A stretch of 35,632 nt of DNA from a virus: IMG/VR virus record IMGVR_UViG_3300023179_000283, positions 1-35,632 of that record; one strand, given 5' to 3'. Within the stretch, counting starts at the first letter, position 1, and every line of letters starts with the position of its first letter. Below the pieces are notes generated by a model that searched no databases, was not told the DNA's origin, and saw nothing but the letters and a program-made list of their open reading frames with translations. Below, in pieces: positions 7,690 through 35,632 of the stretch. Position numbers and translations under genes: made by a program.

Positions 7690-7829
7690 TGCCACTCAAG
7701 AAAGGTAGTAGTAAAAAAACCATTTCCAAGAATATTCGAAAAATGATCCGAGAAGGCTACCCACAAAAACAAGCAGTAGCAGCAAGCCTGTCATCAGCAA
7801 GAAAAGCAAAACGGAAAGCAAAAAGATAA
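7689..7829 (+). CDS. Small basic phage protein (DUF6496-like)
   Basis: 46 residues: it opens [18 protein letters not shown] and contains [15 protein letters not shown], then a Lys/Arg-rich tail. Small proteins of this pattern are widespread in phages and resemble the DUF6496 group; that assignment is from memory. It overlaps the upstream stop and the downstream start by one base each (TAATG). Very high positive charge and lack of aromatic residues suggest nucleic-acid binding, possibly DNA condensation in the head. No direct evidence for that role. Confidence 0.85.
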
Positions 7830-8062
7830 TGGCGCAGCGCAAAAAAGGTCCTAGTCTTTCGGTTGGTCGTGGCGAGAAGCTCTCCGTTTCCGCTGGCGGG
7901 GGTTTGACTGCGAAAGGGCGAGCCAAATATAACCGAGCCACAGGATCAAACTTAAAAGCACCCCAAAAATCAGGTAGTCGGCATCGCTCATTTTGTGCCA
8001 GATCGAAACATTGGAAGGGTGAACGGGGTAAAGCAGCTAGACGCAGATGGGGGTGCAGATGA
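7829..8062 (+). CDS. Small basic phage protein (GLTAKGRAKYN family)
   Basis: 77 residues, strongly basic. The segment GGGLTAKGRAKYNRATGSNL followed by KAPQ and then SFCARSKHWKG is a pattern I recall from many phage proteins of unknown function (DUF6321-like). Two cysteines (one in SFCAR, one in the last three residues) are present. Start overlaps the upstream stop (TAATG) and its stop overlaps the next start (ATGA at 8059-8062). The family is usually placed near structural or terminase genes. Function is unknown; DNA or RNA binding is plausible from charge. Confidence 0.85.
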   Translation: MAQRKKGPSLSVGRGEKLSVSAGGGLTAKGRAKYNRATGSNLKAPQKSGSRHRSFCARSKHWKGERGKAARRRWGCR

Positions 8063-20944: not shown

Positions 20945-21499
20945 ATGCCAGTCAAAAATGATTACAAATGCCCGACACATGGGTATTTTGAGAGTACCAA
21001 AGCGCAATGTCCAATGAAAGGATGCCAAGATGAAGTTTTTATCGTTTTTTTGCAAGCTCCAGCAACTATTTCGGCTAAAACGAAGTTCACCGACAACTCC
21101 ACCAAGCAACTCGCAATGGAGTTCGGAATGTCAGACATCAAAACCACGAGGGAAGGCGAACACCAAACGGGATACCTCACCCGCAAAAACAAGTTCACCG
21201 AAAAAGAGTACGAGCAAGCCGAAAAGTACGCAACCCGTAAAAGAGGGGTCAACAAAGACAAGATCCAACCTCAACAGATCCCGCAAACGCCAGCAGAAGC
21301 CCGCCCTGGTGATGCAGCGATCTGGGGTGGTGGATTCCAAGGACTAAATATGCAATCGTTGTTAACGGGTAGAGCAATTCAATCGGTTAAAGGTGAAGCG
21401 GTGGGCTTGACACCATCTCAGGCTGGTATAAACTCAGGACCTAGAGTAGATCCAAAAGCAACCTTGAGAGATCCTGATAATCTAAAGATCAAGACATGA
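20945..21499 (+). CDS. Zinc-ribbon hypothetical protein
   Basis: 184 residues. The N-terminus has a compact metal site: Cys9, His12, Cys22 and Cys27 (CPTHGYF, CPMKGC), like FmdB/rubredoxin-type ribbons. The remainder is basic and flexible, with KNKFTEKEYEQAEKYATRKR and a Pro/Gly-rich C-terminus. It lies between the terminase and portal genes, overlapping the portal start. Similar proteins occur at this place in other uncultured phages as I recall. A role in head assembly or packaging is inferred from position only. Confidence 0.75.
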   Translation: MPVKNDYKCPTHGYFESTKAQCPMKGCQDEVFIVFLQAPATISAKTKFTDNSTKQLAMEFGMSDIKTTREGEHQTGYLTRKNKFTEKEYEQAEKYATRKRGVNKDKIQPQQIPQTPAEARPGDAAIWGGGFQGLNMQSLLTGRAIQSVKGEAVGLTPSQAGINSGPRVDPKATLRDPDNLKIKT

Positions 21500-23130
21500 G
21501 AATCCCGTCAAATAACGCAGACCGAGAAGATTTTTATTTAGACATTATGCAAAAGTGCATGGTGTCAAAAGAGGAAAGGCGGGGAGATTACAACACATTA
21601 CGGGCTTATTACTTATTTGGCTCTGGACCAGAAGATCCTCCAGCCTACTTTAATAAGATTAACCCGCACCTCGATCAACTTTCATCCTTTCTTTATTCAG
21701 CCGAAACCACACGATTCTCCATCGGTTTAGGCGCATCGGTAAACCCGATTGAACACCGCAAAAGTCCAGCGTTAACTCAAGCATTGAATGACGAGTGGCT
21801 CAATTCTAATGCTGACCAAGTTTTTTCTTCGGCTTTGAATTGGTCGTTGGTGTACAACTCTAGCTTTGTGAAGCTGGTAATGAAAAACGGTATTCATCCT
21901 TACATGGTCGAACCCTCTGCAATGGGCGTACTGCGTGAGGATACCCCTTATACAGACAGGCAAGAAGCGCTAATTCAGACCTACTACATTACCAAGTCCG
22001 ACCTCTACGCCCGTCTGTATTCCCATCCAAAACGGCAAGAGATTGTGGATAAGCTCTCCACAATGGTATCTCCCAAAGAATCCGAGATGCCCGATGCCGT
22101 AAACCGCATCATTACAAGCCAAACCAATCCGACTATTTACGGCAATGTCAACATGGACTTGTATGGTGAAATGAAATATGTTCCACGAGTCGCTGAAGAT
22201 ACCGTAGAGATGCACGAACTATGGGTGTGGAATGACGAAACAGAAGATTATCAAGTGGTGACCATTGCTAGCCCTAGGGTGATTATTTATGACCGCCCAG
22301 GTGCTAGCCTTTTTCTTAAAGGCGAATGTCCATTTATCCAGGTTTGCCCGAACCCCTTGTACGACTACTATTGGGGAGAATCCGAGTGTCAAAAGCTCAT
22401 TCTCTTGCAGCAGCTTCGTAACCAGCGCATGAACGAAGTATTGGATCTCTTGTCCAAGCAAGTTAGCCCGCCAACCGCATTAGTAGGATTTACGGGTATA
22501 TTGGATGAGAAGAACTTTGCTTTGAACCGAGCTGGTGGTTTATTGGCAACCGATATGCCAAACGCCAAAGTAGATCGTCTAGCACCACAGATGCCGACTG
22601 ATCTATTTGAGGTCATTCGTGAGATTGATGCGATGTTCTCCGAGGTTTCGGGGATAAGCAATGTTCTTTCTGGGCGTGGCGAATCAGGTGTTCGCAGCCA
22701 AGGACACGCTAGCCAATTAGCCAGATTAGGTAGCTCCAGAGCCAAGAAACGGGCATTGGTCGTTGAGGATAGCTTAGAAAAGATGGCTACTCTATACCTC
22801 AAGCTCATGCAAGCCTACGATCCAACACATTTTGTGGACACCGAAGGCAAAGAGTTTATTGCCGAACAATTTACCAAAGACTATGTGGTTAAGGTCGATG
22901 CTCACAGCAACAGTCCAATCTTTACCGAGGATCTCAAGCAATTAGCGTTTAATTTGTTCAAGGCTCAAGCCATTGACAAAGAATCCCTACTTGACTTGCT
23001 TGAACCTCCAATGAAACAATTGTTGAAAGACAAATTAAAGCGTCAAGAAAAAGAGGGCGGTGGCGCAGCACCTCAGTCTGGTGGAGCGCAGCCGATTAAG
23101 TTACCAAAACGGGAGCAACAAGTTGGCTAA
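21496..23130 (+). CDS. Portal protein
   Basis: 544 residues. The length, position after the terminase, and segments such as YWGESECQKLILLQQLRNQR, VSGISNVLSGRGESGVRS and a helical C-terminus (EDLKQLAFNLFKAQAIDKES) are typical of phage portals. Twelve copies form the ring through which DNA enters and leaves the head. The last 30 residues are Gly/Gln-rich and basic. The call rests on overall pattern, context and length rather than one signature. It overlaps the previous gene by ATGA and the next gene by eight bases. Confidence 0.88.
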   Translation: MRIPSNNADREDFYLDIMQKCMVSKEERRGDYNTLRAYYLFGSGPEDPPAYFNKINPHLDQLSSFLYSAETTRFSIGLGASVNPIEHRKSPALTQALNDEWLNSNADQVFSSALNWSLVYNSSFVKLVMKNGIHPYMVEPSAMGVLREDTPYTDRQEALIQTYYITKSDLYARLYSHPKRQEIVDKLSTMVSPKESEMPDAVNRIITSQTNPTIYGNVNMDLYGEMKYVPRVAEDTVEMHELWVWNDETEDYQVVTIASPRVIIYDRPGASLFLKGECPFIQVCPNPLYDYYWGESECQKLILLQQLRNQRMNEVLDLLSKQVSPPTALVGFTGILDEKNFALNRAGGLLATDMPNAKVDRLAPQMPTDLFEVIREIDAMFSEVSGISNVLSGRGESGVRSQGHASQLARLGSSRAKKRALVVEDSLEKMATLYLKLMQAYDPTHFVDTEGKEFIAEQFTKDYVVKVDAHSNSPIFTEDLKQLAFNLFKAQAIDKESLLDLLEPPMKQLLKDKLKRQEKEGGGAAPQSGGAQPIKLPKREQQVG

Positions 23131-23287
23131 TCAAAACATTGCACCAAAGGCAGATCAGCCTAGAGTAACCACAGAATCGTTAAAGCGTGGTGAAAAACCC
23201 GCTGGTTTGGAGTATCGTGTAACGAACATACAAAGTTATGGTCGTAGTCCAAAGACAAGGACTATGGGCAGACAAGTTAGGGGATAG
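23123..23287 (+). CDS. Small basic protein after portal
   Basis: 54 residues if it starts at TTG 23123, which overlaps the portal stop and has GGGAG seven bases upstream; this explains the frame better than an ATG further inside the portal gene (23060). The sequence is basic and flexible (QPRVTTESLKRGEKPAG, SYGRSPKTRTMGRQVRG). Its C-terminus is Arg/Gly-rich. It begins a run of three small basic products before the capsid genes. Function unknown. Confidence 0.68.
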   Translation: MANQNIAPKADQPRVTTESLKRGEKPAGLEYRVTNIQSYGRSPKTRTMGRQVRG

Positions 23288-23303
23288 TTAACTGGAGATG
23301 GCT

Positions 23304-23348
23304 ATGTACGGCAAAAAGATGAAGCGTGGTCGTAAGACCCGTAGATAA
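23304..23348 (+). CDS. 14-residue polybasic micro-peptide
   Basis: The product is MYGKKMKRGRKTRR: nine of fourteen residues are Lys or Arg. GGAG lies six bases before the ATG at 23304 (an ATG at 23298 is too close to it). The stop is followed at once by a hairpin (TTTCAC/GTGAAA, 23350-23368). Tiny basic peptides package DNA in some small phages; a leader peptide is the other reading. The clear ribosome site makes translation likely. Confidence 0.62.
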   Translation: MYGKKMKRGRKTRR

Positions 23349-23428
23349 GTTTCACTGTGAGGGTGAAAACAAGGTTGTGGCTGCCTGACCTTATAACTAG
23401 GTGACCGCTGCTAATTGGAGAAATCAAA

Positions 23429-23470
23429 ATGGCACGCAAAGCTCGCAAAGGTCGTAAAGCTCGCAAGTAA
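23429..23470 (+). CDS. 13-residue protamine-like micro-peptide
   Basis: The product is MARKARKGRKARK, a near-perfect repeat of Ala/Gly-Arg-Lys with four Arg and four Lys. TTGGAG stands eight bases before the ATG. Its stop codon begins the hairpin TAATCC-GTAA-GGATTA (23468-23483). The sequence cannot be a chance frame of low-complexity DNA as codons vary (CGC/CGT, AAA/AAG). A DNA-condensing role is inferred from composition. Confidence 0.65.
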   Translation: MARKARKGRKARK

Positions 23471-23539
23471 TCCGTAAGGATTATTCGGGTGACCGATAAC
23501 CTCCCTTGGGGGGAGGGAAGCAAAAATAATACCCCCCAC

Positions 23540-23569
23540 TTGACAAGCAATAGATTAGGTTTAATCTAT
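23540..23569 (+). promoter_or_regulatory. Possible capsid-operon promoter with dyad
   Basis: TTGACA at 23540-23545 is a perfect -35 box, but no good -10 appears at 16-18 bases. Four bases later ATAGATTA-GGTT-TAATCTAT (23550-23569) is a perfect 8+8 inverted repeat, which may be an operator or activator site replacing the -10. It lies 25 bases before the gene at 23594. Confidence 0.4.
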
Positions 23570-23593
23570 GCAGTAATTTGATAGGAAAAAGTT

Positions 23594-24073
23594 ATGGCAG
23601 TAGCACCAGACAAATTAATGGAAATGATTAGAAGCCAACGGGATTCCGCTACTCCTACTGGTGTTCCTCCTACCCCAGAAAATCCTTCTGCTGGTATATC
23701 CGATTCAAGCACACCTCCCATGAGCGCACCCATGTCCACGCCCGAACCTAAGATGGGAAATCGAGAAGGCGCAATGGTCAATCTGTCAATGGCAATGGAT
23801 TTATTAAAACAAGCTCTACCAGCCATCGGTGCAGAATCGGAAGAAGGCAAAAAATTATTAAGCGCAATCCGTATGGTTACGGGTGTGCTTGGTCCTAAAC
23901 AAGATCAAGCCAGCGCTTTGCAACCGTCAGAAATTTTACAGATGTTACAAACCTTACCTCAAGCTGGTGGCGCTACGCCTGAAGGTAAAGCAATGTCACA
24001 AGCGCCAGCAATTCCTGGAATGGCTGCTCCAGCACCATCGCCTGTAGCCACTCCTTCACCTCAACCCATGTAA
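23594..24073 (+). CDS. Pro/Ala-rich protein upstream of scaffold and capsid
   Basis: 159 residues. The ends are Pro/Ser/Ala-rich and disordered (VPPTPENPSAGISD; AAPAPSPVATPSPQPM); the middle (residues 55-105) is helical (MVNLSMAMDLLKQALPAIGA). AGGAAAAAG precedes the ATG. It is the first protein of over 100 residues after the portal and stands two genes before the coiled-coil scaffold candidate, so a head-assembly role is likely. No known family. Confidence 0.75.
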   Translation: MAVAPDKLMEMIRSQRDSATPTGVPPTPENPSAGISDSSTPPMSAPMSTPEPKMGNREGAMVNLSMAMDLLKQALPAIGAESEEGKKLLSAIRMVTGVLGPKQDQASALQPSEILQMLQTLPQAGGATPEGKAMSQAPAIPGMAAPAPSPVATPSPQPM

Positions 24074-35428: not shown

Positions 35429-35632
35429 ATGAACATGGAAACCCTCTCAATCGTGAAATTTGGAGATATTGATTCTCTCCAAGACTTTCTTTTTGAGAAT
35501 GGCACGCAACATAAGCTCTTTCAAGAAACATTTATGGATTTAGGAGTGTCTGTACCCGTTTTTCCCATTACCGATGCTTCAACCGACAACTTAGACGATT
35601 GGTTACTCGCCCATCAGGTCGAACACCAGGCT
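35429..35632 (+). CDS. Hypothetical protein, 5' part of the junction-crossing gene
   Basis: The ATG at 35429 (a second in-frame at 35435) opens a frame MNMETLSIVKFGDIDSLQD that runs off the contig and continues in frame at base 2. Joined, the protein has about 112 residues. It starts two bases after the XhlA-like gene stop. The only difference between the two copies of the overlap is silent in this gene. I do not recognise the family. Confidence 0.85.
   Translation, partial: MNMETLSIVKFGDIDSLQDFLFENGTQHKLFQETFMDLGVSVPVFPITDASTDNLDDWLLAHQVEHQA
35494..35632. repeat. Terminal direct repeat (right copy)
   Basis: Same 139 bases as 1-139 with C at 35620 instead of A at 127. This overlap indicates a circular assembly of about 35,493 unique bases. 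See left copy. Confidence 0.95.

Follow-up and report, generated by a model that had tools for sequence, protein, structure and literature searches.

The window, i.e., the whole stretch of viral DNA that was analyzed (35,632 nucleotides), carries two very short basic open reading frames among its portal, scaffold-like and capsid genes. The portal protein gene (21496–23130, plus strand) is of the SU10 type (Pfam PF23899, SU10_portal, E = 4e-11; phrog_1216, portal), and its stop is overlapped by the TTG start of g54 (23123–23287, plus strand), a gene for a basic protein of 54 residues. Two micro-ORFs follow on the same strand: P1, MYGKKMKRGRKTRR, extending from the ATG at 23304 to the TAA at 23348 (23304–23348), and P2, MARKARKGRKARK, extending from the ATG at 23429 to the TAA at 23470 (23429–23470). 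Each is preceded by a GGAG ribosome-binding site on the plus strand, at 23294–23297 for P1 (spacing of 6 nt to the ATG at 23304) and at 23417–23420 for P2 (spacing of 8 nt to the ATG). A second in-frame ATG at 23298 touches the GGAG of P1, and a start there is less likely than at 23304. Directly after P1, the plus strand reads as a hairpin, TTTCACT-GTGAG-GGTGAAA (23350–23368), and another, TAATCC-GTAA-GGATTA (23468–23483, plus strand), starts at the stop codon of P2 and includes it. The first-pass annotation had described the two micro-ORFs with a GGAG each, a hairpin directly after each peptide and the basic 54-residue protein just upstream, and all of these are confirmed. The P2 region also scores as a 9-bp tandem repeat. 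Downstream, g159 (23594–24073, plus strand) is followed by ORFs of 61 and 175 residues and by the gene for the major capsid protein, so that the major head protein is also among the neighbors. Searches of PHROGs gave no match for g54, g159, the 61-residue ORF or the 175-residue ORF.

Between P2 and g159 there is a conserved −35-like element, TTGACA (23540–23545, plus strand), with a weak and inconsistent −10; TTGAC is seen in 119 of 128 spacers. A promoter scan of the window and four distant relatives called no promoter at the TTGAC site, and a terminator scan of the window found none at the micro-ORF site. Immediately 5' of TTGACA lies an inverted repeat, GGGGGG...CCCCCC (23512–23538), the stem of which is changed on both sides in relatives (GGGTAGC/GCTACCC and GAGGGT/ACCCTC, compared by eye); it possibly serves as a regulatory RNA or as an operator. 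With its two ends (1–139 and 35494–35632) sharing a 139-bp overlap at 99% identity, the window probably represents a complete genome, circularly permuted or circularized, of about 35.5 kb. Two related phage contigs (L201 and L202) sit in two lake MAGs labeled as uncultured betaproteobacteria, which is a weak hint at a betaproteobacterial host, given that phage contigs can be mis-binned.

On both strands of the 35.6-kb window, P1 and P2 are the only SD-led ORFs of 8–30 codons in which K/R make up at least 40%. Using portal similarity alone, with the portals of the window and of L085 as the two queries, we collected 118 distinct portal-to-g159 spacers, in which the portals are 63–96% identical to that of the window; the identities and E-values in our locus tables are relative to each query. 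At the same place, SD-led basic micro-ORFs occur in all 118 spacers: 79 spacers have two, 34 have one, and 5 have three. In dinucleotide shuffles of the first 49 spacers, one such ORF appeared in 0.5% and two in 0%, and no such basic micro-ORF was present on the reverse strand of these 49 spacers. Overall, hundreds of relatives have 1–3 such genes, of 9–16 residues each, between the portal and capsid genes. A search of IMG/VR with a DNA pattern for RKxRKxRKxRK-stop returned at least 119 stretches; among the matches listed, those with a start codon and a ribosome site all have the portal and/or g159 of this family adjoining.

The translation signals are maintained together with the frames. For P2, the ATG and TAA are kept in 159 of 159 relatives, and GGAG in 156 of 159, at a spacing of 6–10; for P1-type ORFs, GGAG is found within 18 nt upstream in 150 of 164, mostly at a spacing of 6. 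The in-frame omega, obtained from a minimum-spanning-tree count and not from a codon model, is 0.27 (0.265) for P2, compared to 3.2 and 5.5 in the other sense frames, and 0.29 (0.291) for P1, compared to 1.6 and 3.4. At one Arg position of P1, the codons CGT, CGC, CGG and AGA are all used, whereas another position takes six Arg codons and, rarely, Lys. The hairpin at the P2 stop codon is found in 125 of 159 relatives with P2, compared to 34 in shuffles; the hairpin 3' of P1 is found in 55 of 120 relatives, compared to 35 shuffled, which is a moderate enrichment only. Loss of the frames with retention of the hairpins was not seen, as portal-selected relatives down to 63% identity keep at least one frame. 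The comparison of relatives that had been proposed as a check was thus carried out, and it shows peptides kept with synonymous change (118 of 118 loci, in-frame omega below 0.3). These comparisons strongly support P1 and P2 as genuine translated genes, and also the earlier suggestion that such genes are missed by annotation. In two deposited relatives, MW202825 (L199) and MW202753 (L200), minus-strand hypothetical genes occupy the portal-to-g159 gap and the peptides are unannotated. We rejected these antisense genes; the antisense frames are not conserved, and those across P1–P2 are open in only 8–35 of 127 relatives. A frameshift fusion of P1 and P2 was also rejected, as their relative frame is random.

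The encoded peptides are nearly pure Lys/Arg with the small residues A, G, S and T, which swap freely between the basic residues. Among 323 micro-ORFs of the clade that includes the window, 313 (97%) have a net charge of +7 to +9, one contains an acidic residue, and six contain I, L, V, F or W. Classifying the peptides by the C-terminus, we define the following three types: (i) P0, ending in SCK or SCR; (ii) P1, ending in RR, KR or CR; (iii) P2, ending in RK. The P0 type, present in some relatives (e.g., L062, L104 and L192), has a Cys adjoining the C-terminus. In a FastTree tree built from the portals of 157 loci, the presence of P2 changes at least 5 times and that of P1/P0 at least 10 times, and none of the 157 loci is without both P2 and P1/P0. 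This pattern is suggestive of P1/P0 and P2 being interchangeable; it is not proof, because the change counts are parsimony minima and the P2 pattern served to select some of the 157 loci.

Beyond this clade, the distant relatives carry different peptides with similar charge and length. L302 (52% identity to the query and about 50% to the portal of the window; GC 60%) has two peptides, MKRHKRGKRKMKR and MAKRRGGRKHKRK, and L308 and L309 (49% and 46% to the portal of the window) have one each. Further loci, which are 36–54% identical to L309 in the search table (L310, L340–L345 and L348), include L310 with MARKRRGRKSKR and MARKRKGRKGKR, L340 with MRHKRSAKRKMRR and MAKRRGGRKHKRK, L341 and L348 with MARGKRGRRHK in each, L342 with MSMPKRGRRGRKHR, L343/L344 with MARRGRRHR, and L345 with MARRRRRGRKSRR. 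The GC content is 56–61% in the three distant relatives that were measured, and the charge is encoded by AAG together with CGN codons of several kinds. At the ten distant loci, almost every Lys codon is AAG, compared to mostly AAA, except for the last codon, in P2 of the window's clade. TTGAC is located 55–197 nt 3' of 11 of 13 distant micro-ORFs, and none was found for the two of L310. In L302 and L345, the scan called a terminator with a T-tail downstream of the micro-ORFs and ahead of the next gene; in L308 and L309, hairpins are visible after the micro-ORFs and no T-tail was called.

One related clade (L311–L339, L346, L347 and L349; 43–51% identical to L309) lacks a micro-ORF in the 900 nt 3' of the portal. 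A relocated micro-ORF was sought across two whole genomes of this clade, but the short ORFs present elsewhere were all scattered and unrelated. A g54-like motif is present in 32 of 32 loci of the peptide-less clade and in 0 of the 10 GC-rich loci having micro-ORFs. Since g54 and the micro-ORFs show reverse patterns, some small basic protein is retained at this place in every genome examined. The g54-like protein of the peptide-less clade has a basic C-terminus.

The spacer between P1 and P2 contains a predicted H-type RNA pseudoknot (23371–23406, plus strand), in which stem 1 pairs 23371–23375 with 23388–23392 and stem 2 pairs 23379–23386 with 23399–23406. Its 3' end is about 10 nt upstream of the P2 GGAG in the window. 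In an alignment of 12 diverse relatives, 90% of the cells are paired, and there are 21 double-change cells compared to 5.0 in shuffles (0 of 500 shuffles); when the same alignment is slid, 60.6% are paired at best. It should be noted that the figures are flattered, as these 12 relatives had been selected by hand and also served for drawing the structure. Among 91 distinct sequences in the anchored register, stem 2 is 80.5% paired (at most 76.4% in shuffles), and compensatory types occur at 6 of 9 positions; in the GGCTT subtype, the two middle positions of stem 2 are mismatched. The MFE fold of the 273-nt region is of ordinary stability (z −0.9), and therefore the covariation is the sole basis for the structure. 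A pseudoknot-like core is present in 105 of 109 spacers with P2 and in 0 of 19 without P2, and the remaining four P2 spacers have, by eye, divergent versions of the pseudoknot. The core was not seen by eye in the printed spacers of L302, L308, L309, L310, L341, L344 and L345, and Rfam gave no match at E ≤ 5 in 22900–23900.

A covarying leader pseudoknot just upstream of the ribosome site, as in control of the gp32/S15 type, was found for P2 only. Its position and co-occurrence with P2 suggest that the pseudoknot exerts translational control of this gene. In a review, the pseudoknot of T4 gene 32 is named as perhaps the sole viral example with a role in translational autoregulation (PMC3014915); the P2 leader may provide a further one. 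The likeness is in a pseudoknot that precedes the ribosome site of a gene, the product of which (here, P2) probably binds nucleic acid (PMC3014915). Compared to that of T4 gene 32, the P2 pseudoknot differs in sequence and is nearer to the ribosome site, and P2 itself is unrelated and far smaller.

Our main reading, to which we assign a probability of about 0.45, is that P1 and P2 are trans-acting polycations that are made with the packaging and head genes, bind nucleic acid, and plausibly condense or package DNA. According to this scheme, based on sequence comparison, micro-proteins of 9–16 residues would be translated along with the head and packaging proteins and would bind the phosphate backbone of nucleic acid through their positive charge. 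Their most likely use would be to neutralize or condense the phage DNA during or after packaging, and P2 would additionally be under translational feedback via the upstream pseudoknot, as is T4 gp32. A more specific version, possible but doubtful, is that protamine-like peptides of about 13 residues in a large clade of tailed phages condense the genome in the head, with P2 balanced by a new autoregulatory pseudoknot; the peptides could then be among the shortest conserved viral genes.

Several systems are comparable. The J protein of phiX174 is found in the mature virion and is rich in positive charge (PMC7096446). The peptides resemble it in being small, strongly basic (+7 to +9) and encoded among structural genes, in the portal-capsid interval; this comparison is by size, charge and position, the peptides being too short for a sequence test. 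However, J is several times longer than these peptides of 9–16 residues, and the phage encoding the latter is a tailed dsDNA phage that has a terminase motor. Furthermore, J has a C-terminal capsid-binding part, whereas the peptides consist of the basic stretch alone, without a C-terminal non-basic capsid-binding segment (they end in, e.g., RK, RR, KR or CR). Baculovirus P6.9, which packs viral DNA (PMC12159748), and the adenovirus core peptide mu, compared by name, are polycations of Lys/Arg and small residues, like P1 and P2. Those viruses, however, build nucleocapsids or cores without the packaging motor of tailed phages, and P1 and P2 are independent ORFs of about 13 codons. The same genome encodes another short basic phage protein of unknown function, a 77-residue member of the DUF6321 family (PF19846) at 7829–8062; it is located elsewhere in the genome, and its sequence is unrelated to P1 and P2.

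Some observations count against packaging. Tailed phages pack their DNA by an ATP-driven motor. In one survey, the capsid charge of tailed phages clusters apart from that of viruses that neutralize their genomes with basic domains (PMC7096446). Because of the motor and of this separate cluster, the peptides are not expected to be needed. The existence of a related clade without the peptides also counts against this reading, and the peptide composition would equally suit RNA binding or a host target.

RNA binding is the less probable but best surviving alternative. Under this explanation, the peptides would be regulators resembling arginine-rich-motif binders, which recognize structures in phage mRNA (for P2, its own pseudoknot) and tune the translation or termination of late genes. 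The covarying pseudoknot, which in the window ends about 10 nt 5' of the P2 GGAG, its co-occurrence with P2, and the peptide composition all fit, and T4 gp32 provides a precedent for autoregulation via an upstream pseudoknot (PMC3014915). However, the peptides persist without the pseudoknot in P1-only genomes, its core is unseen in the printed spacers of distant relatives, and the retention of charge while the exact sequence drifts is a better fit to nonspecific binding.

A host-directed role or a role as an assembly cofactor is slightly less probable again. The peptides would in that case bind a protein surface or the host ribosome, RNA polymerase or nucleoid, or bridge the acidic scaffold and the portal. 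Small phage proteins commonly act on their hosts (PMC11323111), and the neighbors are the portal, scaffold-like and capsid genes; nevertheless, a specific protein interface is disfavored by the near absence of hydrophobic residues in the 323 ORFs and by the freedom with which A, G, S and T replace one another between the basic residues, and the gene position speaks against an early role in host takeover.

Control of the capsid genes by P1 and P2 as leader peptides had also been raised by the first-pass annotation; such a role, through attenuation or stalled ribosomes, is unlikely. Short ORFs with runs of Lys/Arg codons, followed by hairpins and located upstream of capsid genes, have the appearance of leaders, and the scans of the window gave neither a terminator nor a full promoter between P2 and g159. 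However, residue identity is kept and codon identity is not (CGN, AGA and CGG interchange, as do AAA and AAG), the copy number varies from 1 to 3 with independent turnover of P1 and P2, and a TTGAC element separates P2 from g159; in L302 and L345, the T-tailed terminator splits the micro-ORFs from the next gene, with the TTGAC element downstream. Least probable, and hardly tenable, is an untranslated DNA or RNA element (a repeat, a packaging site or a structured RNA) mimicking ORFs, for which the 9-bp repeat score of P2, the hairpin-rich surroundings and the pseudoknot could be cited, but which is at odds with an omega below 0.3 in frame and above 1.5 in the other sense frames, the preserved start, stop and SD, the random frame relation of P1 to P2, the antisense frames not being kept, and the changed codons with unchanged charge in GC-rich relatives.

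The preferred reading, of nucleic-acid-binding polycations, concerns genes of 9–16 codons, which are shorter than many annotation pipelines accept. The phage small-protein catalogue of Fremin et al. 2022 reportedly indicates that many small genes are missed by annotation. The same has been found for small microbial genes in GMSC, in which ORFs were predicted from 30 nt upward (PMC11364881), and sequences of the P1/P2 type may sit there unremarked; a literature search with the peptide strings found no relevant publication. Here, the comparative evidence is strong enough to call genes this short real. Entry of the peptides into the head, if it occurs, would give tailed phages a protamine-like layer, which is unexpected under motor-driven packaging.
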